This document shows positions 2,899 through 62,400 of a DNA stretch of 64,000 bases, piece by piece. Both the position numbers and the translations under genes were made by a program. Below the pieces are notes generated by a model. It was given only the letters and a program-made list of their open reading frames with translations. It was not told where the DNA came from and did no database searches. Source of the stretch: Mumia xiangluensis (lineage in GTDB: Bacteria > Actinomycetota > Actinomycetes > Propionibacteriales > Nocardioidaceae); assembly GCF_010994095.1 (NCBI RefSeq), contig NZ_WJYO01000003.1, forward strand, positions 186,001 through 250,000, in the 5' to 3' direction. Every line of letters begins with the position of its first letter. Within the stretch, counting starts at the first letter, position 1.

Positions 2899-3591
2899 GT
2901 GACCAACCAGCAGGCTGTCCCCTACCCCGTCGGCGATCGTATCCGCGATGCCGTCGTCGAGATCAAGCCTAGACTGCGCGGCTGGCTGCACGCCGCCACC
3001 TGGCCCCTCGCGCTGGCGGCGTTCATCGTGCTGCTCGTGCTCGCCCCGGGCGCCAAGTCCAAGACCGGCGTCGCCGTCTACATGGTGAGCGCTCTGCTGC
3101 TGTTCGGCGTGAGCGCGGTCTACCACGTCGGACGCTGGGGTCCGCGCACTCAGATGCTGCTGAAGCGGTTCGACCACGCCAACATCTTCCTGCTGATCGC
3201 CGGCTCGTACACGCCCTTCGCGCTCATCCTGCTGCAGCCGCGCGACGCCGCGATGCTGCTGACGCTGGTGTGGGTCGGCGCGATCGGCGGCGTGGCTTTC
3301 CGGGTGTTCTGGGTGCACGCCCCGCGCTGGCTCTACACACCGATCTACGTCCTGCTGGGCTGGGCGGCGCTGCTGTGGCTCGACGAGTTCGCCGCGGCGT
3401 CCTCGACGGCCGTGCTCGTGCTGATCATCGTGGGCGGCTCGCTCTACTCGCTCGGTGCCGTGGTCTACGGACTGCGCTACCCGGATCCGTTCCCCCGCTG
3501 GTTCGGCTTCCACGAGGTGTTCCACACGCTGACCATCGCGGCGTTCGTCGTGCACTACGTGGGCATCTCGCTCGCCGCGTACGCGGCCTGA
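2899..3591 (+). CDS. Hemolysin III (PAQR) family membrane protein
   Basis: The 230-residue polytopic protein has about seven hydrophobic segments and belongs to the PAQR/TrhA superfamily. Family histidines expected to bind zinc are visible in YHVGRWG and in the C-terminal FHEVFHTLTIAAFVVH block. Some homologues influence membrane energetics or fluidity; haemolysis is only a historical name. The GTG start at 2899 lies just downstream of the divergent prenyl synthase. The gene ends shortly before a pair of dispersed repeats that separate it from the convergent DUF255 gene. Confidence 0.9.
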   Translation: MTNQQAVPYPVGDRIRDAVVEIKPRLRGWLHAATWPLALAAFIVLLVLAPGAKSKTGVAVYMVSALLLFGVSAVYHVGRWGPRTQMLLKRFDHANIFLLIAGSYTPFALILLQPRDAAMLLTLVWVGAIGGVAFRVFWVHAPRWLYTPIYVLLGWAALLWLDEFAAASSTAVLVLIIVGGSLYSLGAVVYGLRYPDPFPRWFGFHEVFHTLTIAAFVVHYVGISLAAYAA

Positions 3592-3622: not shown

Positions 3623-3732
3623 GCTGGTCGAGTAGCCCCGAGCCGCTAGGCGAGGGGCGTATCGAGACCCCCATCGCCCCCGCTGGTCGAGTAGCCCCGA
3701 GCCGCTAGGCGAGGGGCGTATCGAGACCCCCC
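3623..3732 (+). repeat. Two tandem copies of dispersed hairpin repeat type A
   Basis: Two nearly identical 47-base units begin at 3623 and 3682, 59 bases apart. Each begins GCTGGTCGAGTAG and ends TATCGAGACC. The plus strand can fold into a stem: GGTC/GACC, a GA/GA step, G-C, TA/TA with two bulged bases, GCCCC/GGGGC, a second GA/GA step, GCC/GGC and a four-base loop GCTA. The second copy overlaps the 3' end of the DUF255 gene and supplies its stop codon. Related copies lie in mfd (61925-62079). The role is unknown; it could act as a bidirectional hairpin between the two convergent genes or as a REP-like mobile unit. Confidence 0.9.
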
Positions 3733-5717
3733 AGCTCGCCCGGGTCCGTCACGGGGCGCTCGCAGGCGAACCCCCGGCACACGTACGCCGCCGCGTGGCC
3801 GTCGACCAGGTCCTTGTAGGCGAACAGCGGCACCGGTGTCCCGACCGGCGCGGCGACGACCACCGCTCCTGGCGAGGGCAGCGCCAGCGCCGCACGGTGC
3901 AGACGCGCGGCGTCCTCGCCGTCGCCGACGACGGCGATCTCGAGCGGACCGGCGAGCATCGCCTCGGCGACGGCGAGCGTCCACCCGGCGAACCGCGGCG
4001 CACCGGTCGCGAGCGCGGAGGCTGACCGGACCGCGTCCTCGGCCGCCGTGCGGAAACGGTCCTCGCCCGTGACCGCGGCGGCCGCGAGGAAGGCTGCAGC
4101 CACCGACGACGTACCGGACGGCGTGGCGTTGTCGCCGAGGTCGCGCGGGCGTACGACGAGGCGCTGGGCGTCGTCGGCGGTGTCGTAGAAACCGGTGGCG
4201 CCCGCGTCGCTGCCGACGGCGAAGTGGTCGAGAACCGCGTCGAGCAGAGTCGTCGCGCGCTCGAGCCAGACGGCGTCGCCGGTGACCCCGAGGACCGCGA
4301 GGTATGCCTCGGCGACGCAGCCGTAGTCGTCGAGGACGCCTGCGTTGGTCGACGCCATCCCGTCACGCGAGGTCCGCAGCAGGCGGCCGTGCGGGTCGGT
4401 GTGCACGGTCGCGAGCAGGGTGGCTGCGACGACGGCGGCGTCCGTGTACTCGGGCTCGCCCAGCAGGACCCCCGCTTCCGCCAGCGCCGTGACGGCGAGC
4501 CCGTTCCAGGCGGCGACGACCTTCTCGTCGCGCGCCGGAGCCGTACGCTCCGCGCGTCGCGCCGTCTCCAAGCGCTCACGCACCGACGCCCACCGTGCCG
4601 CGTCGTCGGGGTCCTCGCGGAGCTGGAGGGTCGACGTGCCGTGCTCGAACGTCCCCGCGTCCGTCACCGACAGCAGCCGGGTCGCCCACGCGCCGTCGTC
4701 CTCTCCGAGGACCTCGACGAGCTGCCGAGGCGTCCAGACGTAGTAGGTGCCCTCCGCGCCGTCGGTGTCGGCGTCGAGCGCAGACGCGAACCCGCCCTCC
4801 GCGGTCGCGAGGTCGGTCAGGAGGAAGTCGGCCGTCTCCCGGACCACCCGCAGCGCCAGCTCGGACCCCGTCTGCCGCCACAGGTGCAGGTAGACCCGCA
4901 CCAGCAGCGCGTTGTCGTACAGCATCTTCTCGAAGTGCGGCACGACCCAGCCGGCATCCACGCTGTAGCGCGCGAAGCCTCCGCCGAGCTGGTCGTACAT
5001 GCCTCCGCGCGCCATCGCGTCGCAGGTGTGCTCGACCATCGCCAGGGTGTCGGCGGAGCCGGTGCGGTCGGCTGCGCGGAGCAGCTGCTCCAGACACATC
5101 GACGGAGGGAACTTGGGCGCTCCGCCGAACCCACCGCGTACGGCGTCGTACTGGGCTGCGAGCCCGCGCACCGCCTGGTCGAGCGCATCGGCGTCCAGCG
5201 CCGGTCCGTCGCCGGCCTCGAGCGCGCCCAGGTGCGAGACGACCTCGGCGCTGATCCGGTCGACGTCCCCGCGGCGGTTTTCCCACACGTCGACGACCGC
5301 CTCGAGCACCTGACGGAAGGCCGGCATCCCGTGTCGCGGCTCGGGAGGGAAGTAGGTCCCGGCGAAGAACGGGTCCCCGCCCGGCGTCAGCATCACCGTC
5401 ATCGGCCAGCCGCCCTGACCGGTCATCGCCGTCGTCGCCCGCATATAGACGGCGTCTACGTCCGGGCGCTCCTCCCGGTCGACCTTGACCGGGACAAAGT
5501 GCTCGTTGAGGTAGGCCGCGGTCGCCTCGTCCTCGAACGACTCGTGCGCCATCACGTGGCACCAGTGGCACGCGGCGTACCCGACGCTGAGCAGCACCGG
5601 CACGTCCCGCTCCGCCGCGAGCGCCAGCGCCTCGTCCCCCCACTCGTGCCAGTCGACGGGATTCTCGGCGTGCTGGAGGAGATATGGGCTGGTGGCTCGG
5701 CTGAGTCGGTTGGCCAT
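3705..5717 (-). CDS. Thioredoxin-domain DUF255 protein (YyaL/SSP411 family)
   Basis: This 670-residue protein joins an N-terminal thioredoxin-like domain to a long alpha/alpha-toroid domain like those of sugar-processing enzymes. The start at ATG 5717 gives the classic opening [16 protein letters not shown]; a longer reading from 5816 adds unconserved residues. The redox motif is C50-H-W-C53, followed by the conserved REERPDVD and GQGGWP blocks. The toroid half shows [11 protein letters not shown] and [14 protein letters not shown]. The last residues (GGLDTPLA) and the TAG stop come from dispersed repeat A, so the original C-terminus has been replaced or extended. Substrate and physiological role are unknown. 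Confidence 0.92.
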
Positions 5718-5802
5718 GCCTCCACCGTAGGCGCAATCACGGGGTGCGAACCCGCGCGGAGTCGATAGCGTCAGGGCACCGTATCGACGAAGGGGAACGA
5801 CG

Positions 5803-6333
5803 ATGGCATTCGACACGATGGTGGTCTTCGCGGCGAGCTACGCGGACGAGGACGACGCGATCGCCGACTACGAGGCGGTCAAGGACTTCTACCAGGAGAG
5901 CGGCCTCATCGACACCTACGACGCGGCGGTGATCTCGAAGCACGACGACGGCAAGGTCAAGATCGTCAAGAAGCACGAGCAGCCGACCCGACAGGGAGCG
6001 TGGGGCGGCCTCGGGATCGGACTGGTCGGCGGTGCCGTGATCGCACTGTTCCCCGCGGTCGCGATCGGCGGCGCCCTCGTGGCCGGCGGCGCGGCGGGCG
6101 GTGCTCTCGGCGCCCTCGCCGGGCACGTGGCTGGCGGGATGAGCCGCAGCGACCTGAAAGACCTCGGCGAGACGCTCGACGAGGGTCAGAGCGGCCTCGT
6201 CGTGGTGGCAGCCACCGACATGGAGGCGCACGTCCAGGAGGCGATCAAGCGCGCGGGAAAGCTCGCGAAGAAGCAGCTCCGCGCGGACGAGAAGGCGCTC
6301 GAGGCGGAGATCGACAAGGCGACCGGGGCCTAG
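5803..6333 (+). CDS. DUF1269-type membrane-associated protein
   Basis: The 176-residue product has a soluble N-terminal half (residues 1-65), a Gly/Ala-rich hydrophobic segment (about 68-108) that can span or insert in the membrane as a hairpin, and a Lys/Glu-rich helical C-terminus. This architecture matches DUF1269 proteins, some of which are stress-induced. The ATG at 5803 has a GGGGAACG-type purine stretch upstream. It is divergent from the DUF255 gene. Its TAG stop shares the four-base palindrome CTAG with the stop of the next, convergent gene, so the two genes end inside each other. Confidence 0.78.
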
Positions 6334-12326: not shown

Positions 12327-13542
12327 ACGTGTAGGTGATGACGTAGCCGTGCTCGCGCAGCGCCTGCTCGACGGCGAAGCGGTGCTCAGGCCCTCGGGTC
12401 TCGACGCTGAGCGTCACCTCGACCTCGTCGATCGCGAGGGTCGAGGCCGTCCGCTCGTGGACGACGTCGAGGACGCTGACAGCCATCTCGGCGAGCACGC
12501 GGAGCAGCACGTCGAGGGATCCGGGGCGGTCGGAGATCCTCACCCGGAACGACAGGAACCGTCCGGCGGCGGCCAGCCCGTGGCGTACGACGTTCATCAG
12601 CAGCAGCGGGTCGATGTTGCCGCCGCTCAGGACGCACACGACGGGTGCGTCGCTGCCGTCGTCGAAGACCTCGGGGTGCTGCATGATCGCCGCGACACCG
12701 GCGGCACCGGCCGGCTCGACCACGAGCTTCGAGCGTTCGAGGAGAAGCAGGAGCGCCTGGCTGAGCGACTCCTCGGTCACGGTCACGATGCGGTCGACCC
12801 AGCGGGAGATCTCGGCGAACGGGACGTCGCCCGGCCGTGAGATCGCGATGCCGTCGGCCATCGTGCGCTGTGCCTCGATGGTGGTCGGCGCGCCCTGCTC
12901 GAGGGAGATCGGGTACGGGGCGACGCGCTCGGACTGCACGCCGATCACCCGGATGTCCGGCCGCAGCGCCCGTACGGCGAGCGCGACGCCAGCGACGAGA
13001 CCGCCGCCGCCGACCGGGATGACGATCGTGGAGGCATTCGGCACCTGCTCGAGGAGCTCGAGGCCGAGCGTCCCCTGCCCGGCGACGATGTCGGCGTGGT
13101 CGAACGGGTGGATGAGAACGGCGCCGGTGCGCGCCGAGAAGGCGTGCGCCGCTTCGAGCGCCGACTCGACCGACGACCCGGCGAGCTCGATCGTCGCGCC
13201 GTAGTCCCGGGTGGCTGCCAGCTTCGGGAGCGGGGCGCCCTCGGGCATGAAGACGGTCGCGCTGGTGCCGAGGAGCGACGCGGCGAGGGCGACGCCCTGC
13301 GCGTGGTTGCCGGCGCTCGCCGCCACCACGCCGCGGGCCTTCTCCTCAGCCGACAGCCGAGCGATCCTGACGTACGCGCCGCGGATCTTGAACGAACCCG
13401 CGCGCTGCAGGTTCTCGCACTTCAGCAGCACCGGACGCCCGAGCCGCTCGGCCAGCGGACGCGAGGACTCGATCGGGGTCCGCGTGGTCACACCGGCGAG
13501 CAGCTTCTCGGCCGCGCGGACGTCGTCGAGCGTCACGGTCAT
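12325..13542 (-). CDS. ilvA: Threonine ammonia-lyase (threonine dehydratase)
   Basis: The PLP enzyme deaminates threonine to 2-oxobutanoate, the entry to isoleucine synthesis. At 405 residues it has the catalytic domain with Schiff-base lysine K52 in GSFKIRGA, the phosphate-binding glycine loop (VGGGGLVAG), and a single C-terminal ACT-like domain from about residue 325. The single ACT region and total length match the actinobacterial IlvA/TdcB-like form, rather than the two-ACT E. coli IlvA. Feedback control by isoleucine is therefore uncertain. No leader peptide or T-box is visible in the nine bases separating it from the AI-2E gene's 3' end. Confidence 0.92.
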   Translation of the reverse strand: MTVTLDDVRAAEKLLAGVTTRTPIESSRPLAERLGRPVLLKCENLQRAGSFKIRGAYVRIARLSAEEKARGVVAASAGNHAQGVALAASLLGTSATVFMPEGAPLPKLAATRDYGATIELAGSSVESALEAAHAFSARTGAVLIHPFDHADIVAGQGTLGLELLEQVPNASTIVIPVGGGGLVAGVALAVRALRPDIRVIGVQSERVAPYPISLEQGAPTTIEAQRTMADGIAISRPGDVPFAEISRWVDRIVTVTEESLSQALLLLLERSKLVVEPAGAAGVAAIMQHPEVFDDGSDAPVVCVLSGGNIDPLLLMNVVRHGLAAAGRFLSFRVRISDRPGSLDVLLRVLAEMAVSVLDVVHERTASTLAIDEVEVTLSVETRGPEHRFAVEQALREHGYVITYT

Positions 13543-27523: not shown

Positions 27524-30500
27524 TCAGGGCTTCTCCAGGGTCCCCTCCCCCTCGTCGTCTGCAGCCGCTCGGCGGTTCCGCGACGCGATGAGCCACGCGC
27601 CCACAACCAGCATCAGCAGCGCGAGCACGGAGATCCAGCCCGCCGGTCCGCCCGTGAACGGCAGGTCGGGGGGCGGCGTCGGCGGCGTCGCCTCTGGCGG
27701 CGTCTCGTGCGTCGTGGTCCGGCAGTCTTCTGCAGCGGCCGCCGCGCGTGCGGACGACAGCTCAGGTCCGTCCGGCGGGCAAGGCTGCGCGCCGTCCCCG
27801 GTGACCACGTTGCGCAGCACCACGTCGCGGGCGTCGTCGTCGACCGTCACCCGATAGGTGAGCGTCTGGGTGCCGGTCAGCGTGCCGACCGCCCACGTCA
27901 ACGTCGTCCCTGAGACGCTCGCCGAACCGGCGCTCGCCGTGATGCTGCCCTCGACCAGCGTCGCGTGGTCGAGGACCCGCGAGAGGTCGTCGACCACGGT
28001 GACCCCGTCGACGCTCGTGCCGGAGACGATTCCAGCCCGCACCGTGTACGTGACGACGTCACCGGGATCGACGTCCGACCCGGAAGGCGGGTCGCTCGAC
28101 TTCACCACCGTCCAGGTACTGGCGGGCGGGACCGCGTCGTCGTCGTTGGTGATCGTGCAGGTGACGTCATCACCGGGGGCAAGCGTGATCGTCGCACCGT
28201 CGAGCGCGGCTTCGCCGGCGGTCGCGACGCACTCCCAATCGGAGGCGGTGTAGCCCGAAGGACCGCTCTCGGCGAGGGCGTAGGCGCCCGCGGCGGTCGA
28301 CACCGCGGTCACGGCATCGGAGCCGGTCACCCCGCTGTGGGTGCTCGGCCCAGTCGCCGACAGCGTCCAGTCCGTCGCTGCCGCGGTCCCCCCGTCGTCG
28401 TTCACGACCTCCTTGACGAGCGTCAGTGTCGGCGCGTCGTAGGTGTTCGTGATCGTGCAGGTCACGTCGCTGCCATTCGGGACGGTCACGGTTGCGCCCG
28501 CGAGCGCCGCCTCCCCGCAGTCCCACTCGGACGGCGTGTAACCGGCAGGCCCATCAGACTCCGACAGGTCGTAGTCGCCCGCATCCACCTCGGCACCTGT
28601 GACCGCGGGGGCGCCCGTCACACCCGTGATCGTCGTCTCGCCACCGGTCGCTGCCAACGTCCAGTCGGTCGGATCTGCCGCGCCGCCGTTGTCGTTGACG
28701 ACCTCCTTGACAAGTGTCAAGGAGCCTGGCTCGTCGTCGTTGACGATCGTGCAGGTGACGTCCGCGCCGAGACCGACGGCGACGTTGGCGCCCTCCATGG
28801 TCGCCTCGCCGCAGTCCCAGTCACCGGCTGTGTACCCGGCAGGACCGCCCGTCTCGGACAGGGCGTACCCGCCGGCGTCGACCTCGACCGCAGTCACGGC
28901 CGGAGTCCCGGTAGCGCCCGTGATCGACGTCGGGCCGTCAGCCGTCAACGTCCACTCCGTGGCCTCTGCGGTGCCGCCGTCGTCGTTGGTCACCTCCTTG
29001 ACCAGCGTCAACGTCCCCGGCTCGTCGTCGTTGACGATCGTGCACGTGACATCGCCGCCGTTCGGGACTGTCACGGTCGCACCCTCCAGCGTCGCACTGC
29101 CGCAATCCCAGTCACCCGCGGTGTAGCCGACCGGACCCCCGGCCTCCGACAGGTCGTACGCCCCCGCGTCCACCGTCGCACCGGTGACCTCGGCAGCCCC
29201 GGTCGTACCCGTGATCGACGTCGGACCGTCAGCCGTTAACGTCCACTCCGTCGCCTCCGCCGTACCGCCGTCGTCGTTGACGACCTCCTTGACGAGCGTC
29301 AGCGTGCCCGGCTCGTCGTCGTTCACGACGGTGCAGGTCACGTCCGCGCCGTTGGCGACCGAGACTGCTCCGGCGACGACCGGAAGCTCGCCGTCGGTGG
29401 TGATGCACACCCAGTCCGAGGGGGTGTATCCCGACGGGCCGGTCTCGGCCAGCGCGTACGACCCCGCGTTCACGGTCACGCCCGTGACCGTCACCGATCC
29501 GGTCGGCCCGCTGACGCCCGTGGTCGGCCCGTCCGCGGACAACGTCCACTCCGTCGGCTCCGCCGTGCCGCCGTTGTCGTTCGTGACCTCCTTGACCAAC
29601 GTCAACGTCCCCGGCTCGTCGTCGTTGACGATCGTGCACGTCACGTCGCCACCGCTCGGGACGGTGACGGTCGCGCCTTCGAGCGTCGCGTCGCCGCAGT
29701 CCCAGTCACCCGCGGTGTAGCCCGTCGGACCGCCGGCCTCCGACAGGTCGTAGCTGCCCGAGCTGACCTCCGCGCCGGTCACCGCCGCAGAACCGGACGC
29801 GCCGGAGATCGGCGTCGGCCCGTCCGCGGACAACGTCCAGTCCTCGGGTTCGGCAGTGCCACCGTCGTCGTTCGTCACGTCCTTCACCAGGGTGAGGTGC
29901 GCCGGCTGCTCTCGGTTCGTGAAGGTGCAGAGACCGGCGAACTGAGCCTGGATGGTGATGTTCCGGGTGCTGGCTGGGATCGCCGGCCCGATCGCGCACG
30001 TCAGGTCGACGAACGTGTATCCCGGCGGGCCTCCGGACTCGGTCAGCGTGTACTCCACGCCGGGTCGGATGTTGAACGGCTCCACGGCCGTCGAGCCGGT
30101 CACGGTCACAGGCTGCAGACCCGCCGGTCCATTCACCGGCGTCGCAGTGAGGGACCAGTCGGACGGCACTGCGCTCCCACCGAAGGGGTTCTCCACGACC
30201 TTGCGCAGCGCTAGCCTCGCGGTGTCGTTGAAGGTGGTGCACCGGACGTCGTAGCCGAGCGGCACGTTCACGCCGCCGTTCAGGCCGTCTGCGTAGCCCG
30301 GGATGACCTCGCCGTCGGGCCCGATCTGCTGACAGGTCCAGCTGCCGGAGTTCCCGGCCGGGATCACGGCGTTGGGATCCTCGAACTGGACGAAGTTCAC
30401 GTCGCCCTCAGACTCCGTGAGCCCGTAACGCACGCCCGGCGTCACCTCGATCAAGGTCGCGCTGTCGCTTCCGGTCGCACCCGCTGGACCCTCGAGCGCG

Positions 30501-32506
30501 CCGTCCGGGGCGATCGACGTCAGGGTCCAGTCGGTCGGGTCGCCCGTCCCTCCGCGGATCTGCTTCTCGAGTGTCAGCCGCGACGTGCAGGTGACCACGT
30601 TTGTGACCGTGTAGGTGTTGGCAGTCTGCGTGAGGGTCTCGTCCGCTGGCAGGCTCACGGAGACGGGCGTGCCGTTGCGCGACGTGAGCTGCTGGGAGTC
30701 CAGGGTGCAACCCGGGCGGGTCGACAGGTCGACGACCTCACCGATCTCGACGACGTCGTTGAGGAAGTAGCCGCTCTGGGCCACCCCCCAAGGCGCGTCG
30801 ACCCCGTCGATGCTCCCGGCCGCGATGAACCCGCTCGGCTGAGCCCCGTCCGCGAACGGCGTACCGTCGATCACCCACTGCTTGTTGACCGTCACCGTCA
30901 CCGGCGGGTTCGGGGCGCGGTTGTAGACCGTGCAGCTGATCGGGAAGGCAGCGTTCGCGGTCACCGAGAAGCCGACCGCGCCGGAGTTGGTCGAGGGCAC
31001 AGCTGCGCCCGTGTCGGTCCGGACGCAGGTCGCGTTGAACCCGTTCACCGGTTGGAGCGTGAATCCGCCCTGCACCTCCTCGATGAACGAGACCGCGCCC
31101 GAGGTCGTCCCACCCGCGAACTCGAGCGGGAAGTTGACGGCACCCGTCTCGCCGGTGACGCGGAACGCGGGCGGGGTGATGGTCACGCCAGGCGCGCTGC
31201 CTGTCGCCGTGAAGGTCCAGCCCGGGGCGGGGAGCGCTCCTGCGGTCGACCCGGGCGGGGCACTCGGCGGCACGACCTGCTTGACCACCGAGACCGAGCC
31301 CTGGCACGAGCCGAGCGCGAGCGCCCGCAGCTGCTGCGCGGCCTCGGCGTAGTTCGCGGACTGGTAGTAGTCGTCGTTCAACGTCGTCCCGGAGATCGCC
31401 CGCAGGTTCTGCCCGCTTCCGGCATTGCCGACGCCGTCTCCGACACCGACGGCGACGACGCGCGTTCCGGTCGCCTTGATCGCGTTCGCCGAGAAGATGC
31501 CGTTCTCGACCTCGCGGAAACGCGTACGGCTGCCGGGCCCTTCCACGTTCTGGCCGTAGAAGGTCGGGTTGCCGTCGGTGATGAGGACAGCGACGTCGAA
31601 GGACGAGGTCGACTCGGCGACCTGGGCGAACCCGCGGTCCCAGTTCGTGCCGCCCGCGTTGCCGCCAGGCTTGGTGAACCCGGCGATCTTGTTCTTCACC
31701 GAGGTCGCACCGGCCGCCGTGGCGACCGAGGTGAGCGGGAGCGTCGTGTTGGTCGCGCCGGTGGCGGGGGCGTTGCTCGCGAACGTGAAGGTGCTGACAG
31801 CAGACGGCGTCCCCGTGAGCGAGTCGACGAACGACTGGCTGGCAGCTTTGAGACTCACCAGCTGGGCGTCGGTGACCGAGTTCGAGAGGTCGTGGACGAT
31901 CGCGACGTTGATTCCGCACTGTGCGGGGAAGTCGGGGTTGTCCAGCGAGTTCTGCCAGATGCCGCCCGAGGCCTGGTTGTTCTCGTTGCCGGTACCGATC
32001 ATGAAGTTCACGGTCGAGCTGTAGGTCTGGCCGTTCTGGAGGGCCGTACCGGTCTGGAACCGGTACGGGTCGGCCGCGACCGTGGTGCCGGTGCCCAGGC
32101 TCGGGTTCGTGTACCAGCCGGCCGGGGCGGCGACCTGCCGCACCCAGAACCGGCGGTTGCGGTTGACTCCTCCGACAGCCTGCGTGTTCGGAACGACGAT
32201 CGAGCAGTCGCCGTCGGCGTCGGAGGTGCAGGTGAAGGCCGGAGTCCCACCGGTCGCGGCGTCGTAGAACCCGAGCTCTACTCCCGCGAGACTCGTCACG
32301 CCGCTCGTTCCCGAACGACTCCCGCCGACCTTGACGGTGATCACCGCGTTGTTGCCGGTGGCCGGCGGGACCGCCTGCGGCATGACGACCTCAGGCAGCA
32401 GTGCCGGGGCGGGCGCGGAGACCGCACCCAGCCCGGCCGTCAGTGCCGTCGCTCCGAGAACTGCCGCAACTCGTCGCCAACGTCCCGAAACGTTGCCTGT
32501 GACCAT
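27524..32506 (-). CDS. Giant sortase-anchored surface protein with VWA domain and tandem prealbumin-like repeats
   Basis: The 1660-residue protein starts with a basic, hydrophobic export signal. An N-terminal prealbumin-like part is followed by a von Willebrand A domain (about residues 195-395) with MIDAS residues DLSNS and VLITDGNP. Several SpaA-like domains come next, and then six close tandem repeats (about residues 868-1452), each opening LTLVKEV and closing with a DVTCTI(V/T)N block. A DUF11-like domain (WTVVKSSDPPSG) follows. The C-terminus has a sorting signal: LPFTG near residue 1612, a hydrophobic helix and a basic tail. Lys and Glu placement in the repeats fits intramolecular isopeptide bonds, as in Gram-positive adhesins. 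No sortase gene lies in the window. Role is inferred: adhesion or surface display. Confidence 0.9.
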   Translation of the reverse strand: MVTGNVSGRWRRVAAVLGATALTAGLGAVSAPAPALLPEVVMPQAVPPATGNNAVITVKVGGSRSGTSGVTSLAGVELGFYDAATGGTPAFTCTSDADGDCSIVVPNTQAVGGVNRNRRFWVRQVAAPAGWYTNPSLGTGTTVAADPYRFQTGTALQNGQTYSSTVNFMIGTGNENNQASGGIWQNSLDNPDFPAQCGINVAIVHDLSNSVTDAQLVSLKAASQSFVDSLTGTPSAVSTFTFASNAPATGATNTTLPLTSVATAAGATSVKNKIAGFTKPGGNAGGTNWDRGFAQVAESTSSFDVAVLITDGNPTFYGQNVEGPGSRTRFREVENGIFSANAIKATGTRVVAVGVGDGVGNAGSGQNLRAISGTTLNDDYYQSANYAEAAQQLRALALGSCQGSVSVVKQVVPPSAPPGSTAGALPAPGWTFTATGSAPGVTITPPAFRVTGETGAVNFPLEFAGGTTSGAVSFIEEVQGGFTLQPVNGFNATCVRTDTGAAVPSTNSGAVGFSVTANAAFPISCTVYNRAPNPPVTVTVNKQWVIDGTPFADGAQPSGFIAAGSIDGVDAPWGVAQSGYFLNDVVEIGEVVDLSTRPGCTLDSQQLTSRNGTPVSVSLPADETLTQTANTYTVTNVVTCTSRLTLEKQIRGGTGDPTDWTLTSIAPDGALEGPAGATGSDSATLIEVTPGVRYGLTESEGDVNFVQFEDPNAVIPAGNSGSWTCQQIGPDGEVIPGYADGLNGGVNVPLGYDVRCTTFNDTARLALRKVVENPFGGSAVPSDWSLTATPVNGPAGLQPVTVTGSTAVEPFNIRPGVEYTLTESGGPPGYTFVDLTCAIGPAIPASTRNITIQAQFAGLCTFTNREQPAHLTLVKDVTNDDGGTAEPEDWTLSADGPTPISGASGSAAVTGAEVSSGSYDLSEAGGPTGYTAGDWDCGDATLEGATVTVPSGGDVTCTIVNDDEPGTLTLVKEVTNDNGGTAEPTEWTLSADGPTTGVSGPTGSVTVTGVTVNAGSYALAETGPSGYTPSDWVCITTDGELPVVAGAVSVANGADVTCTVVNDDEPGTLTLVKEVVNDDGGTAEATEWTLTADGPTSITGTTGAAEVTGATVDAGAYDLSEAGGPVGYTAGDWDCGSATLEGATVTVPNGGDVTCTIVNDDEPGTLTLVKEVTNDDGGTAEATEWTLTADGPTSITGATGTPAVTAVEVDAGGYALSETGGPAGYTAGDWDCGEATMEGANVAVGLGADVTCTIVNDDEPGSLTLVKEVVNDNGGAADPTDWTLAATGGETTITGVTGAPAVTGAEVDAGDYDLSESDGPAGYTPSEWDCGEAALAGATVTVPNGSDVTCTITNTYDAPTLTLVKEVVNDDGGTAAATDWTLSATGPSTHSGVTGSDAVTAVSTAAGAYALAESGPSGYTASDWECVATAGEAALDGATITLAPGDDVTCTITNDDDAVPPASTWTVVKSSDPPSGSDVDPGDVVTYTVRAGIVSGTSVDGVTVVDDLSRVLDHATLVEGSITASAGSASVSGTTLTWAVGTLTGTQTLTYRVTVDDDARDVVLRNVVTGDGAQPCPPDGPELSSARAAAAAEDCRTTTHETPPEATPPTPPPDLPFTGGPAGWISVLALLMLVVGAWLIASRNRRAAADDEGEGTLEKP
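28150..29905 (-). repeat. Six in-frame tandem repeats of about 291-304 bases within the surface-protein gene
   Basis: Repeat starts (minus-strand LTLVKE codons) lie near 29900, 29614, 29309, 29018, 28727 and 28433, giving units of 97-101 codons. The neighbouring units at 28990-29610 are the most alike at both DNA and protein level, suggesting recent duplication. Two more diverged copies (LTLEKQ and LALRKV) precede the array. Confidence 0.88.
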
Positions 32507-46973: not shown

Positions 46974-47048
46974 TGCTCCCGGCGGGACTCGAACCCGCAC
47001 CTTGGACGGGTTTAAGCCGTCTGCCTCTGCCGGTTGGGCTACAGGAGC
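46974..47048 (-). tRNA. tRNA with UAA anticodon and short variable loop (nominally tRNA-Leu)
   Basis: Reading the minus strand from 47048: acceptor GCTCCTG pairs with CGGGAGC, and a D arm has A14 and the GG pair. The anticodon stem GACGG/CCGTC encloses loop CTTAAAC, giving anticodon TAA. A six-base variable region CAAGGT is followed by T stem GCGGG/CCCGC with loop TTCGAGT, and discriminator A. The anticodon reads UUA (Leu). However, leucine tRNAs are class II with a long variable arm, and this one is class I. CCA is not fully encoded (CC then C). The gene call is firm; amino-acid identity is not. Confidence 0.85.
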
Positions 47049-47073: not shown

Positions 47074-47154
47074 GGTTTCGACTCGCTGCGCTCGCTCAAC
47101 CAGCGGAGGAGGGCTCGCTCAGTCGGCGGAAGGGGGGCTCGCTCAGTCGGCGGA
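47074..47154 (-). repeat. Dispersed repeat type B followed by two partial repeats
   Basis: Bases 47074-47101 are a full type B unit. On the minus strand it has GGTT/AACC ends, three GA/GA steps split by GC pairs, and loop GCA. It is followed by two 24-base units containing GCTCGCTCAGTCGGCGGA at 47113 and 47137, which look like amplified half-units. The last contains the stop codon of the CFA-synthase-like gene. Confidence 0.8.
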
Positions 47155-47940
47155 GGGGGTGCCGGTGATCTCGTACGCGCGGACCGTCCGGCGCTCGAGG
47201 TTGTCGCGCACGAGGACGAGCGACACCCTCCACATCCGGGCGTGCTGGGCGCCGACCGCATCGACGACCGCGTCCCAGTGCTCCTCGAGCCGCGCGCCGA
47301 TGTCCCGGAGGCGGTCGCGCTCCTCGGAGACCACCTCGCGTACGGCGTCGACGACGAGGCCCTCCTGCTCCCACCGCCCGATCGACGCGCTCAGCGGCTC
47401 CGGGTCGGTGTAGACGGTCTCAGCCCGTCCGGCGTCCTCGCCAGCGGCGTGCCCGAGCACGGCATCGGCAAGCTCGGCCGGCAGCTCGGTGCGCATCTGC
47501 CCTGGGACGTCGAGGTAGCCGGTCACGGCATCGACCGGCTCCGAAGGCCCCCGCGGCGCGGGACCCACCGCACCGAGCTGCACGGTCAGGCGCAGCACCT
47601 CACGGCGGTCGGCCGGCTCGAGGGTGCGCTTCGCGGACGCCTGCTCGACGTAGTCGCGCATCAGCCGCACAGCCGTCTCGAGGTCGCCGTCGATGGTGAG
47701 CTCGCCCGCGATGTAGGCCTTGGCGATGCCTTCCTGCCCGGGCGACCACATCAGGCGGCGGACGGTCCGGCGTGACTCGAGGTGCGCCGCGATCCCGACG
47801 TCGCCGGACTCAGGATCGACCCGTGACCCGTCCCACGCGGTGAACGTGACCGGCGGCGCCTCGCCGTACACCTGGACGAGCAGGTCGACCAGCCGTCCGG
47901 CCACGCCGGTGGAATGCGTCCGGGTGATCTCCTCAGTCAT
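47143..47940 (-). CDS. Cyclopropane-fatty-acyl-phospholipid synthase relative lacking the methyltransferase core
   Basis: The 265-residue protein matches both ends of CFA synthases but not the middle. Residues about 25-95 ([38 protein letters not shown]) are the N-terminal lipid-binding region. Residues about 180-260 ([39 protein letters not shown]) match the extreme C-terminus. The roughly 150-200-residue SAM-binding core, with its glycine-rich motif and bicarbonate site, is absent, yet the reading frame is open. Usual length is about 420. It is therefore an in-frame deletion derivative: either a decaying gene or a non-catalytic lipid-binding protein. It overlaps the UDG gene by eight bases. 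Its last residues come from a dispersed repeat. Confidence 0.7.
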
Positions 47941-48801: not shown

Positions 48802-48815
48802 TTCACCTCGGTGAA
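48802..48815. promoter_or_regulatory. Dyad TTCACC-TC-GGTGAA upstream of the GH92 gene
   Basis: A perfect six-base inverted repeat around TC lies 89 bases before the GH92 start in the divergent gap. It could be an operator for a sugar-responsive regulator. No regulator gene is adjacent. Confidence 0.3.
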
Positions 48816-48903
48816 ATCTGCCCGTCACGTGGCGTACGTAGCGTCCACGCCACGGGCTCGTGGCGGTGCGAGCCACCGCGGCGCCGGACGAGGGGAGGCC
48901 CCG

Positions 48904-51180
48904 ATGGCTGTCGACCCCTTCATCGGCACGTCCGCCACGGACCTGCCGCCCTCGACCGGGCTGGCGGCCACGTGGTGGTCACCGAAGCCCCAGGTGGGCA
49001 ACACCCACCCCGGCGCGTGCCACCCGCTCGGGATGGTGTCGGCGTGCGCCTACTCGGGTGCCTACCCGACCGGCTACGGACGGTACGACCTCAGCACCGA
49101 GGGCGTGCCGACCGCGATCCTCGACGACCAGGTGGCCTCGGGCGTCACGCACTTCCAGCAGTCGGGCACCGGGGCGATCCGGAAGTACTACAACTACTTC
49201 CGGGTCACCCCGATGCTCGAGCCTCTCGACGCCCTCGGCCGCACGTGGCGGCTCCACGACGAGGAGGCCGAGCCGGGCTGGTACGCCGCCACGCTCGACT
49301 CGGGCGTCCGCTGCGAGGTCACCGTCGGGCCCAAGAGCGCCGTCCACCGCTACACCTTCCCCGCGCACCACGACGCCCGCCTCGTCGTCGACTTCTCGCT
49401 CGGCGGGCTAGCCATCCCGTACGGCGCCACCGTCCCGCTGCGCTCACACCTCGAGGCCGTCTCCCCCGGGGTGGCGCGCGGCGAGATCGTCGTCGAGGGC
49501 GCACCGCTCGCCGTCCATCTGGAGTGCGACGCCGAGCGCTGGCGCCAGATGCTCTGGTACGACCGACGGCTGATGGCGGGCGGCAGCCGGCTCGACTTCC
49601 ACGACATCCGGACGACCACCCTCCGTCCGTTCGGCGTGATGTGGGCCGGGCCGACCGCCGCAGAGCAGGTCGTCGAGCTCCGCCTGGGATTCTCGCTGCG
49701 CGGCACCGAGCAGGCGCGCGAGAACCTCCTCGCCGACTGTGGACCGAGCCGGTCCAGCTTCGCCGTACGCCGCGAGGCCACCGCCCGCGCCTGGGGCGAC
49801 CACCTCGGCCTGATCGACGTGACGTGCCCGGATCCCGAGCGCCGCACGGTCTTCGAGACAGCGCTGTACCACTCGCTCGTCAAGCCGTGCCTCGCACCGA
49901 ACGAGAGCCCGTTCTGGCCGAGCGACGGTCCGTTCGCGTTCGACATCAGCACGATGTGGGACATCTACCGGACGCAGCTCCCGTTGCTGACCGCGCTCGT
50001 GCCCGCGCGGGCGGCCGAGCTCGCCAACGCCCTCCTGCACGTCTGCGAAGAGGAGGGCAACCTCCCCATCGGGTACCGCATGGCGCGCGGCGCCGACGTG
50101 TTCTCACGCCAGGCCAGCGCGCTCGCGCAGACGTTCCTTGCGGACCTGTGCGCGCTCGGGATCGGCGGCATCGACTGGGACTGGGCCCTCGTCCACATGC
50201 ACAACGACCTCCGGCGGGCGTACGGCGAGGACTACCTCCTGCGTGGCGTCGCCCACCCGATCAGCCACACCCTCGACCTCGCGTTCGGCTACTGGTGCAC
50301 GCTCCAGGTCGCGCAGCACGTCGGCGACAAGGCGCTGGTCAGCGAGCTCGAGCCGTACGCCGCCGGCTGGTCGAGCGCGTTCGACCCCGCGACCGGCCTC
50401 CTGCTCGACTCGACCTTCTACGAGGGTGGACGGTGGAACTACTCGTTCCGCCTCGTCCACGACATGGCCGCCCGGATCGTCCTGGCCGGCGGCGCGGAAG
50501 CGTTCGTCGCGCTCCTCGACCGGTTCTTCGGGTACGGAGCCGAGGCCGTGCAGCAGCCGGGAGTGCGCCCCTCGAAGGCGGAGATGGCGGCCGGTTACGC
50601 GCTCGACCGCTTCGAGGGCCTCAACAACGAGCCGGACATGGAGGCCCCCTGGGCGTACCACTACGCGGGGCGCCCGGATCGTACGGCCGAGATCGTGCAC
50701 GCGGTGATCCACCAGCGCTTCGGAACCGGGCACGGTGGGCTCCCCGGCAACGACGACTCGGGCGGGCTGAGCTCGTGGTACGTGTGGGCCGCGCTCGGTC
50801 TGTTCCCCGTCGCCGGGCAGAACATCTTCCTCGTCAACGCGCCGTCGTTCTCCGCCGCCACCGTCAACCTCGCCGACGCACGGCTCGAGATCGAGACGAC
50901 GGGCTTCACCGAACCCGGCCGCGACACTCCCCCGCAGTACGTGCAGGCGGCGTGGCTCGACGGCCGACCGCTGAACCGCACGTGGCTCGACGGCACCGAG
51001 CTCTACCGAGGCGGGCGACTCCTCCTCGAGCTCGGACCCGAACCCGGCTCCTGGGGCCGGGCCCCCGAGTGCGTTCCACCGTCCTTCCCCGCCGGCGCCC
51101 GCCGCGGGCGCCGTCCTGAGCGAGCGAAGCGAGTCGAAGGGGACGTCCTCGCCGTCTCTCCATCGATCGGGGTGTCATGA
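48904..51180 (+). CDS. GH92 family alpha-mannosidase, no signal peptide
   Basis: The 758-residue protein belongs to glycoside hydrolase family 92, inverting calcium-dependent exo-alpha-mannosidases. The N-terminal domain has VDPFIGT and GNTHPGACHPLGMVS. The catalytic domain has the motifs SLVKPCLAPNE, TMWDIYRTQLPLL, NNEPDMEAPWAYHYAGRPD and GNDDSGGLSSWYVWAALGLFPVAG, including the catalytic acid/base region. ATG 48904 follows GGGGAGG and is not followed by an export signal, so it acts inside the cell unless exported otherwise. The last 25 residues (with ERAKRVEGD) are encoded by dispersed repeat B and are not part of the fold. It overlaps the next gene by four bases. Confidence 0.92.
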   Translation: MAVDPFIGTSATDLPPSTGLAATWWSPKPQVGNTHPGACHPLGMVSACAYSGAYPTGYGRYDLSTEGVPTAILDDQVASGVTHFQQSGTGAIRKYYNYFRVTPMLEPLDALGRTWRLHDEEAEPGWYAATLDSGVRCEVTVGPKSAVHRYTFPAHHDARLVVDFSLGGLAIPYGATVPLRSHLEAVSPGVARGEIVVEGAPLAVHLECDAERWRQMLWYDRRLMAGGSRLDFHDIRTTTLRPFGVMWAGPTAAEQVVELRLGFSLRGTEQARENLLADCGPSRSSFAVRREATARAWGDHLGLIDVTCPDPERRTVFETALYHSLVKPCLAPNESPFWPSDGPFAFDISTMWDIYRTQLPLLTALVPARAAELANALLHVCEEEGNLPIGYRMARGADVFSRQASALAQTFLADLCALGIGGIDWDWALVHMHNDLRRAYGEDYLLRGVAHPISHTLDLAFGYWCTLQVAQHVGDKALVSELEPYAAGWSSAFDPATGLLLDSTFYEGGRWNYSFRLVHDMAARIVLAGGAEAFVALLDRFFGYGAEAVQQPGVRPSKAEMAAGYALDRFEGLNNEPDMEAPWAYHYAGRPDRTAEIVHAVIHQRFGTGHGGLPGNDDSGGLSSWYVWAALGLFPVAGQNIFLVNAPSFSAATVNLADARLEIETTGFTEPGRDTPPQYVQAAWLDGRPLNRTWLDGTELYRGGRLLLELGPEPGSWGRAPECVPPSFPAGARRGRRPERAKRVEGDVLAVSPSIGVS
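51115..51140 (+). repeat. Dispersed repeat type B in the GH92 C-terminal tail
   Basis: The unit has ends CCT/AGG in place of GGTT/AACC, with the same three GA/GA steps, GC pairs, GAA loop and bulged T. It encodes ERAKRVE, the same peptide as in mfd. A separate hairpin (GGCGCCCG/CGGGCGCC, 51094-51112) lies immediately before it. Confidence 0.85.
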
Positions 51181-59431: not shown

Positions 59432-62400
59432 CTAGGCGGACGAGGCGATCACGGTGTCGATCAGCGTGCGGCACCAGTCCATGAGCTCGGTGTCGCGCAA
59501 CGGCTGACCGCCGACCTTCGCGGTCTTGGGCCGCGGGACGAGAAGGAGGTTTGCGGTCGCCTTCACCACGGAGCCCGGATAGACCCGCTTGAGCCGCAGC
59601 TGGCGCGACTCCGGCAGGTCGACACCCAGGATGCGGATGTTGTTGCCGGCGACGGTGAGCTCGGAGATGCCGACGTCGCGCGCCCGCACCCGTAGCCGCG
59701 CCACGCCGAGCAGCGCCTCGACCGGCGCCGTCGGCTCGCCGTACCGGTCGACGAGCTCCTCGCGGACCTCCGCGACCTCGGCATCGGAGCGCACGTCGGC
59801 GAGCCGCTTGTACATCTCCAGCCGCAGGCGCTCGCTCTCCACGTAGTCGTGCGGCAGGTGCGCGTCGACCGGGAGCTCGAGCTTGACCTCGAGAACCTCC
59901 TCGCCGCGGTCGCCGCGGAACTCCGTGACGGCCTCGCCGACCAGGCGCACGTACAGGTCGAACCCGACGTCGGCGATGTGGCCCGACTGCTCGCCGCCGA
60001 GCAGGTTGCCCGCTCCGCGGATCTCGAGGTCCTTCATGGCGATCGCCATGCCGCCACCGAGCTCGGAGTGCTGCGCGATCGTCGAGAGCCGCTCGTGCGC
60101 GGTCTCGGTGAGCGGCTTCTCCGGCGGGTAGAGGAAGTAGGCGTACGCCCGCTCCCGCGAGCGCCCGACGCGCCCGCGGAGCTGGTGCAGCTGCGAGAGA
60201 CCGAGCATGTCGGCCCGCTCCACGATCATCGTGTTGGCGTTGGAGACGTCGAGACCCGACTCGACGATCGTCGAGCAGACGAGCACGTCGTACTTCTTCT
60301 CCCAGAAGTCCACCATGATCTGCTCGAGCTGGTGCTCCCCCATCTGCCCGTGCGCCATCGCGATCCGCGCCTCCGGCACCAGGTCCTTCAGACGCTTGAC
60401 GGCCTTGTCCATCGAGTTGACGCGGTTGTGGATGTAGAACGCCTGCCCGTCGCGCAGCAGCTCGCGGCGGATCGCGGCGACGACCTGCCGGTCCTCGTAC
60501 GGGCCGACGAAGCTCAGCACGGGGTGCCGCTCCTCGGGCGGTGTCTGGATCGTCGACATCTCACGGATGCCCGTCACCGCCATCTCGAGCGTCCGCGGGA
60601 TCGGCGTCGCCGACATCGACAGCACGTCGACTGCCGCGCGCAGCGTCTTCAGCGCCTCCTTGTGCTCGACACCGAAGCGCTGCTCCTCGTCGACGATCAC
60701 GAGCCCGAGCTTCGGGATCTTGACGCCCTTCTGCAGAAGCCGGTGGGTACCGATGACGAGGTCGATCGAGCCGTCCGCCAGACCGTCGAGGACCTCCTTG
60801 GACTCCTTCTCGGTCTGGAACCGTGACAGTGCCCTCAGGACCACCGGGAACTGCGCGTAGCGCTCGGAGAACGTCGCGAAGTGCTGCTGCACGAGCAGCG
60901 TCGTCGGCACGAGGACGATGACCTGCATGCCGTCCTGGATCGCCTTGAACGCCGCACGGACGGCGATCTCGGTCTTGCCGTAGCCGACGTCGCCGCACAC
61001 CAGACGGTCCATCGGGACCGGGCGTTCCATGTCGCGCTTGACCTCGTCGATCGTCGCGAGCTGGTCCGGGGTCTCGTGGTACGGGAAGGCGTCCTCGAGC
61101 TCGCGCTGCCACGGCGTGTCAGGGCCGAAGGTGTGCCCCTGGGTCGCCTGCCGCGCGGCGTACAGCTTGATCAGCTCCCCCGCGATCTCCTTCACGGCCT
61201 TGCGGGCACGGGACTTGCGCTTGCTCCAGTCGGCGCCGCCCAGCCGGTCGAGGCTCGGCTGCTCGCCACCGACGTACCGGGTGATCTGGTCGAGCTGGTC
61301 CGTCGGGACGAACAGACGGTCCGCGGGCTGACCACGCTTGGAGGCGGCGTACTCGATGACGAGGTACTCGCGGACCGCCCCCTGGATGGTCCGCTGCATC
61401 ATCTCGACGTACTTGCCGACGCCGTGCTGATCGTGGACCACGTGGTCGCCGGGAGCGAGCTCGAGCGGGTCGATCTGCTTGCGGCGGCGCGACGGCATCT
61501 TGCGCTCGCCGCGCGCGGTCGCCGCCGTCTGCCCGACCAGGTCCTCCTGGGTGAGGACGACGAGGTTGATCCCCTCGGCGACGAAGCCGTGGTCGATCTC
61601 GCCGCACATCACGTGGACGACGTGCGGCGTCAGGTCATCGACCGTCACGGCTGGCTGGTGGTGCTCGGCGTGGAAGCGCCCGGCGATGTCGTGCTCCGCG
61701 AGCACCTCGACGCTGCGCGCCGCCTGGCCCTCGCCGGGGGTGACCAGGACGACACGCGTCCCGGTGGCCATCCACCCCTTGAGGTCGACGAGGGCGCGCT
61801 CGACCTCGCCGCGGTACGACGGGGTGGGCGCGAACGGCAGGTTCACGCCGTCGGTGTCGTAGCGGTCGAAGTCGGTTTCGACTCGCTTCGCTCGCTCAAC
61901 CGGCGAAACCTCCGTCTCACCCCCGCTGGTCGAGTAGCCCGAGCCGCCAGCACTCCCCCCGCTGGTCGAGTAGCCCGAGCCGCCAGCACTCCCCCCGCTG
62001 GTCGAGTAGCCCGAGCCGCCAGCACTCCCCCCGCTGGTCGAGTAGCCCGAGCCGCCAGGCGAGGGCGTATCGAGACCCTCGTCCACCAGGAACGGCGACG
62101 TCGACCACCACGCACGCCCCGACGCGAGCGCGTGCTGGCGAACGTCGGCGAGCGACCAGTACGCGGCGGCCCCGAGGTCGATCGGTGCTTTGCCGCCGCC
62201 CGCGGCCGCCGCCCACGACGCCGCGAGGAACTCCTCGCTGGTCGCCACGAGGTCGTGCGCCCGGGTCCGGACGCGTTCGGGGTCGCAGACGAGGATCGTC
62301 GCGTCGGCCGGCAGCAGGTCGACGAGGAGCTCCATGCCGTCGACCAGCGCAGGCGCGAGGGACTCCATGCCCTCGACGGACTGTCCCTCGGCGAGCTTCT

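Follow-up and report, generated by a model that had tools for sequence, protein, structure and literature searches.

A stretch of 64,000 nucleotides from Mumia xiangluensis (assembly GCF_010994095.1, contig NZ_WJYO01000003.1, forward strand, positions 186,001 to 250,000; hereafter the window) holds short hairpins that recur at distant sites, between genes and within them, and are built on a single plan in which short stems alternate with 5'-GA/5'-GA steps. An earlier note on this DNA, made from the letters alone, read these repeats as either a REP-like element moved by a transposase-like enzyme or a structured RNA. REP-like palindromes without a RAYT have so far had no clear mover, and the question that the locus raises is what recognizes such hairpins and spreads them.

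Hairpin copies in the window and in the genome

The window contains three copies of a type A hairpin, two of a type B hairpin and one copy with a variant stem. All six stand within 3 bases of the positions at which the earlier note had placed them. As it had also claimed, they fold alike on one G-A plan (GGTY-GA-G…T-C-GA-RACC), which is found in all six, with a CCT/AGG outer stem in the copy at 51115, and the differences between copies are compensatory. The first type A hairpin (GGTCGAGTAG..CGTATCGAGACC; 3626..3669, plus strand) is preceded by CCGCT and lies just 3' of an hlyIII/TrhA-like gene (2899-3591); a second, identical copy follows as a direct repeat (3685..3728, plus strand) and overlaps the 3' end of a convergent ORF (3705-5816). 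A type B hairpin (GGTTGAGCGAGCGCAGCGAGTCGAAACC; 47074..47101, minus strand) has a tRNA gene (46974-47048) on one side and an ORF (47143-47940) on the other, and the type B copy with the altered outer stem (51115..51140, plus strand) sits within the 3' end of a GH92-like ORF (48811-51180). Two diverged half-copies (CCGCCGACTGAGCGAGC; 47113-47129 and 47137-47153, minus strand) adjoin the hairpin at 47074.

The remaining copies are clustered within mfd, where a type B hairpin (61874..61901, minus strand) is followed by three direct left-half copies of type A with a 36-bp period (61928..62022, plus strand; 61928-61950, 61964-61986 and 62000-62022), each stopping just past the apical loop, and by a full type A hairpin (62036..62077, plus strand) that closes the array. 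Aligned to the Mfd of M. smegmatis, the window protein matches as far as residue 400 and then again from 475, picking up at the same target residue, 407. The 74 codons that are additional by this alignment (residues 401-474; 61859..62080, minus strand) contain the hairpin cluster and thus form an extra segment made of copies.

A strict form of the pattern matches the window six times, where 0.175 matches would be expected (first-order dinucleotide Markov model, mean of 40); five of the six are named copies, and the sixth (GGTCGAGGTGACGCTCAGCGTCGAGACC; 12397-12424, minus strand) lies in a coding region and looks like a chance match. Separately, the window holds direct repeats with a 291-303-bp period (28132-29929) within an ORF of 1660 aa on the minus strand (27524-32506); they look like a protein domain present several times.

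Genome-wide (4.62 Mb in 9 contigs), a general pattern matches 273 times with nested matches included, exact type A arms occur 22 times around many different inner stems, and GGTTGAG..TCGAAACC, which is mostly type B, matches 99 times including nested matches; the reversed-pattern control for each of these searches returned 0. The same genome has a third type, type C (GGTCGAGGCGCGAAGCGATCGAGACC), which occurs in arrays. A GTAG tetranucleotide stands at the 5' foot of type A and is missing from types B and C. Truncation of the copies is one-sided. Left arms following CGYY number 241 distinct instances at the loci of this genome, 96 of them full and 145 partial, with some chance coding matches among the latter; dozens of the partial copies are left halves that break off near the apex and are followed head-to-tail, across a C-rich spacer, by another left arm. 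Right arms lacking a full hairpin are rare (6 of 105 over three arm types), and several of these are substituted full copies. That partial copies are almost exclusively left halves suggests a nick or a stop near the apex.

Covariation and strand polarity of the fold

The earlier note had predicted covariation at the proposed pairs, and the prediction is borne out by copies gathered from many genomes. The fourth pair of the outer stem is T-A in 294, C-G in 183 and G-C in 1 of 506 unique sequences, and Watson-Crick in 94.5%. For inner modules, defined as the sequence between GAGTA and GTATCGA, the first four pairs are Watson-Crick in 84.6% of cases (271 modules long enough, of 277 unique), compared with a mean of 55.9% and a maximum of 58.9% in 1000 permutations of the stem halves; 22 distinct fully paired inner stems occur. 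Both counts exclude L100-L129, where the matches listed are chance coding ones. The M. xiangluensis genome on its own gives 94.7% Watson-Crick inner pairs, compared with 66.8% when permuted (maximum 80.3%; n = 19).

The claim that only one strand folds well held in part. Internal tandem mismatches are of the GA/GA kind in 57 of the 277 modules and GGA/GGA in 4, while TC/TC, AG/AG, CT/CT, TCC/TCC, AA/AA and TT/TT are each found in 0 of 277. Folding energies are less decisive: the G-A strand came out ahead in all 12 sequences tried, with a small margin of 0.2-2.1 kcal/mol by DNA parameters and one of 0.0-6.0 (one tie) by RNA parameters. Shuffling brings no loss of stability to the type B copies, the TT-loop variant or two of the type A copies, and in types A and C the DNA structure of minimum energy has TCGA paired with TCGA and not GGTC with GACC. 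Energy parameters may undervalue sheared pairs. Covariation, together with the occurrence of GA/GA mismatches and the absence of TC/TC from the modules, establishes that the fold and its strand polarity are real.

A GIY-YIG nuclease gene between inverted hairpins

The gene found beside the hairpins encodes a single-domain GIY-YIG nuclease of about 95 aa (PF01541, E 6.8e-20; PDB 1zg2, E 1.2e-16), which by sequence belongs to the same family as the UPF0213 GIY-YIG proteins (PDB 1zg2, 1ywl). Residues Y5, Y15, R25, H29 and E62 are invariant in 19 sequences; we take them to be the catalytic residues of the GIY-YIG nuclease, intact here. The match to group I intron endonucleases falls below the cut-off (22 against 56 bits), and the gene sits between hairpin arrays. 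M. xiangluensis has two such genes, each occupying a gap of about 340 bp between facing arrays: one (C1:1145788-1146060) has seven type C copies on the plus strand on one side and seven on the minus strand on the other, and the second (C1:1045826-1046098) has type B hairpins on both sides. Type A encloses a nuclease gene in a congener (G085), and no type A-flanked nuclease occurs in the M. xiangluensis genome itself.

A search of hairpin loci for the nuclease motif gave 11 matches, of which three were one and the same M. xiangluensis gene and three apparently spurious; the remainder were the second M. xiangluensis gene, three Anaerolineales genes and one Homoserinibacter fragment, and the complete genes begin 32-66 bp from a hairpin. 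An all-against-all comparison of ORFs near the hairpins of the M. xiangluensis genome, run with length and composition filters, yielded no recurrent mobile gene; it also missed the two nuclease genes, although both lie within the stretches compared, presumably owing to those filters. A 35-nt type B sequence found no counterpart at E<=0.01 in the plasmid and phage collections, where relatives of the nuclease with <60% identity occur in 5 and 4 records, respectively.

The arrangement recurs far beyond this genome. A protein search of 71 genomes of the family gave 28 positives for the nuclease at E<=1e-4, one of the 28 being marginal. Of 30 loci of the family, 28 carry the motif, and among these 28 a hairpin lies within 250 bp upstream in 25, downstream in 25 and on both sides in 23. 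The nearest upstream copy shares the strand of the gene in 24 of its 25 cases, and on the downstream side the nearest copy is oppositely oriented in 20 of 25. A broader set of 62 distinct nuclease genes (from loci L301-L390, 28 of the 90 having been dropped as duplicates, too short, off-centre or motif-less) spans Actinomycetota, Chloroflexota and Treponema. Here a hairpin stands within 250 bp of 58 genes (upstream 54, downstream 52, both 48, none 4), and the same inverted arrangement prevails: of the 54 genes with an upstream hairpin, 46 have the nearest one on their own strand, and of the 52 with a downstream hairpin, 37 have the nearest one on the other strand. At the hairpin density of 14 genomes, a gene would have hairpins on both sides by chance with a probability of about 1e-5 to 2e-3. 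Of nine loci at which the motif search had missed the gene, seven, including the archaeal one, lack a hairpin next to the match.

A scan of named genomes with GGTTGAGTAGC..GTATCGAAACC arms returned at least 120 stretches, those listed including Microbacteriaceae, Aeromicrobium, Gordonia, Anaerolineales, other Chloroflexota, Treponema and one Bathyarchaeum MAG. Among hairpin-bearing genomes chosen from these listed stretches, 23 of 27 have the nuclease; the four without it include two of the three Treponema genomes. In T. bryantii, which has the nuclease, hairpins stand 101 bp before the gene and 10 bp after it. The sequence of the nuclease is weakly correlated with the hairpin subtype (Mantel r=0.105, p=0.026). 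In several genomes (L304, L323, L324, L385, L386) a minimal 19-nt form, for example GGTTGAGCCTGTCGAAACC, flanks the nuclease, and it resembles a CCTGAGCTTGTCGAAGG repeat of other phyla. Viral contigs also carry hairpins (13 and 14 stretches, 25 distinct loci). At three viral sites (L133 2953-2995, L133 9489-9529 and L143 6229-6257) the hairpin, judged by eye, occupies the loop of a larger palindrome, as though it had targeted another hairpin.

Hairpin number also follows the presence of the gene. The nuclease profile is positive in 72 of 196 genomes of the order, and hairpins were counted in the same 196. Tests of copy number used 150 of these; the 46 left out belong to families f3 and f4, where the nuclease is found in 0 of 46 and the 13-40 pattern matches per genome come from genomes mostly of 6-10 Mb, the matches listed looking like coding sequence. 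With p values that ignore kinship among genomes, the median match number in the family of M. xiangluensis (76 genomes) is 92 for positives (n=57) and 17 for negatives (n=19; p=2.5e-9), a difference that also appears within genus g3 (99.5, n=38, versus 15.5, n=8; p=8.9e-6) and genus g2 (51, n=13, versus 18, n=7; p=0.008). A second family (74 genomes) shows a weaker trend with exceptions (14, n=15, versus 6, n=59; p=2.5e-4): 9 of its 15 positives have 19 hairpins or fewer, six of its negatives have 42-250, and genera g12 and g14, taken alone, show no significant difference (p=0.096). Several genomes are rich in hairpins without a nuclease at E<=1e-8 (G180 with 250, G036 with 206, G172 with 122, G080 with 117, G079 with 61, G076 with 45, G019 with 43, G125 with 42). 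Conversely, some genomes of the M. xiangluensis family have the nuclease and few hairpins (G073 10, G064 13, G171 24, G183 24). Match number within this family spans 9 to 624, the low values being near background.

The proposed element and its competitors

We consider it probable, and hold this with fairly good confidence, that a GIY-YIG nuclease element comparable to Ssn/NTS has these repeats as its mobile ends and as its cognate sites in single-stranded DNA. The Ssn proteins of Neisseria are site-specific single-strand GIY-YIG nucleases with genomic NTS/dRS3 repeats, and by analogy they appear closest in action to the pair described here. Both systems join a single-domain GIY-YIG nuclease to hundreds of cognate palindromic repeats per genome. 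They differ in the repeat, which here combines GGTYGAG/TCGARACC arms with tandem G-A steps and variable apical modules, forms inverted ends around the gene, and is found in Actinomycetota, Chloroflexota and Spirochaetota; single-strand cleavage is a prediction for the present system.

On this proposal, the master unit would be the nuclease gene of about 95 codons between inverted hairpins, with the G-A strand pointing inward on both sides, and the dispersed single, paired and arrayed hairpins would be its non-autonomous, REP-like copies. The nuclease probably recognizes the folded G-A strand through its outer stem, the tandem sheared G-A pairs and the G-C pair with the bulged T, at times when the DNA is single-stranded, as in replication or uptake. 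It would then nick that strand, perhaps near the apex, and repair or strand transfer after the nick could add copies. Type A may be a subtype whose own nuclease has been lost in this genome or which is served in trans, since of the two nuclease genes of this genome one is flanked by type B and the other by type C. More tentatively, with somewhat less than even confidence, the hairpins may represent a REP-like mobile class with a GIY-YIG rather than an HUH mobilizer, spread across at least three bacterial phyla and into viral contigs, having inverted G-A ends and a folded single strand that is nicked near the apex, and of which the left-half copies would be the footprint of that nick and of priming from it.

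A related possibility, which we regard as real if rather doubtful, is that the pair forms a host system and not a selfish one, the hairpins marking sites where incoming or lagging-strand single-stranded DNA is cut and so tuning transformation or recombination. This is compatible with the element proposed above, and the probabilities of the two overlap. It would agree with Ssn/NTS in Neisseria and with the hairpins of viral contigs, but the wide span of match number within the family and the copies lodged inside mfd and the GH92-like gene are what would be expected of selfish DNA.

The second reading offered by the earlier note, a structured RNA, we judge improbable. Terminators or stabilizers of mRNA ends would make the transcript the selected strand, and the preference for the G-A strand is indeed larger by RNA than by DNA energies; moreover, the copies at 3626 and 3685 lie just 3' of a gene, on its sense strand. 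The type A copy in mfd, however, is antisense to that gene, and the inverted hairpins on both sides of one nuclease gene go unexplained. The reading has little support because the hairpins have no Rfam match at gathering score, a tRNA being the sole match in the window.

Its first reading fared better in one half than in the other: the repeat is a strand-polar, covarying, REP-like hairpin with an enzyme gene beside it, but the enzyme is a GIY-YIG nuclease. Classical REPs mobilized by a RAYT/TnpA-REP (HUH, Y1) transposase are very unlikely here, although the likeness to GTAG REPs as described in the available parts of PMC3733652 and PMC6006769 is considerable, extending to the short polar palindromes, the dimers and clusters, the intergenic as well as intragenic copies and, in type A, the GTAG with which the inner hairpin begins at its 5' foot. 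Types B and C lack GTAG, the present repeats have an extra outer stem and G-A steps, and their companion gene is a GIY-YIG one. The RAYT with adjacent copies that the earlier note had suggested did not turn up: PF01797 has no match at E<=1 in the M. xiangluensis genome, and at E<=0.001 it is matched in none of the 76 family genomes and in 6 of the 196 genomes of the order. Within genus g14, Y1 is missing from two genomes rich in hairpins (89 and 99 matches), and the two Y1 carriers have 4 and 7. Hairpin-bearing genomes elsewhere have Y1 in 7 of 23, all Chloroflexota, and of the 26 Y1 loci listed in them a single one lies within 250 bp of a hairpin, there a loose match of 19 nt; another control set of Y1 loci gave 1 of 21. 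From these searches of its own genome, the 196 genomes of the order and the 23 hairpin-bearing genomes, RAYT/Y1 was rejected as the mobilizer.

DUF222-HNH (13E12) proteins were likewise rejected as mobilizers, and are a most improbable choice, since one of the six DUF222 genes in the M. xiangluensis genome adjoins hairpins (within 250 bp) but the other five have none nearby. Two hairpins, one type C-like and one type A, lie just upstream of the adjoining gene (G000:C2:860773-861708, L083).

Among the papers listed in literature searches, none deals with the hairpin element. The word Actinobacteria does not occur in the available text of PMC3733652 or PMC6006769, and no word beginning with nuclease or transposase occurs in that of PMC12306157. 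According to the accessible part of PMC3733652, the CGTC-tagged REPs form a super-family without a dedicated transposase; they differ from the present repeats in sequence and are reported there from other phyla.

The hairpin is thus best understood as a putative recognition site, and probably a mobile end, of the GIY-YIG nuclease, which probably recognizes and spreads the hairpins in place of the expected transposase. A tiny nuclease gene and a covarying hairpin co-occur across phyla, so that a single protein of 95 aa and one oligonucleotide would be enough to test what recognizes and spreads these repeats. Given the tandem G-A steps, DNA may well be recognized as a folded single strand, and the nuclease may offer a structure-specific tool for nicking single-stranded DNA.
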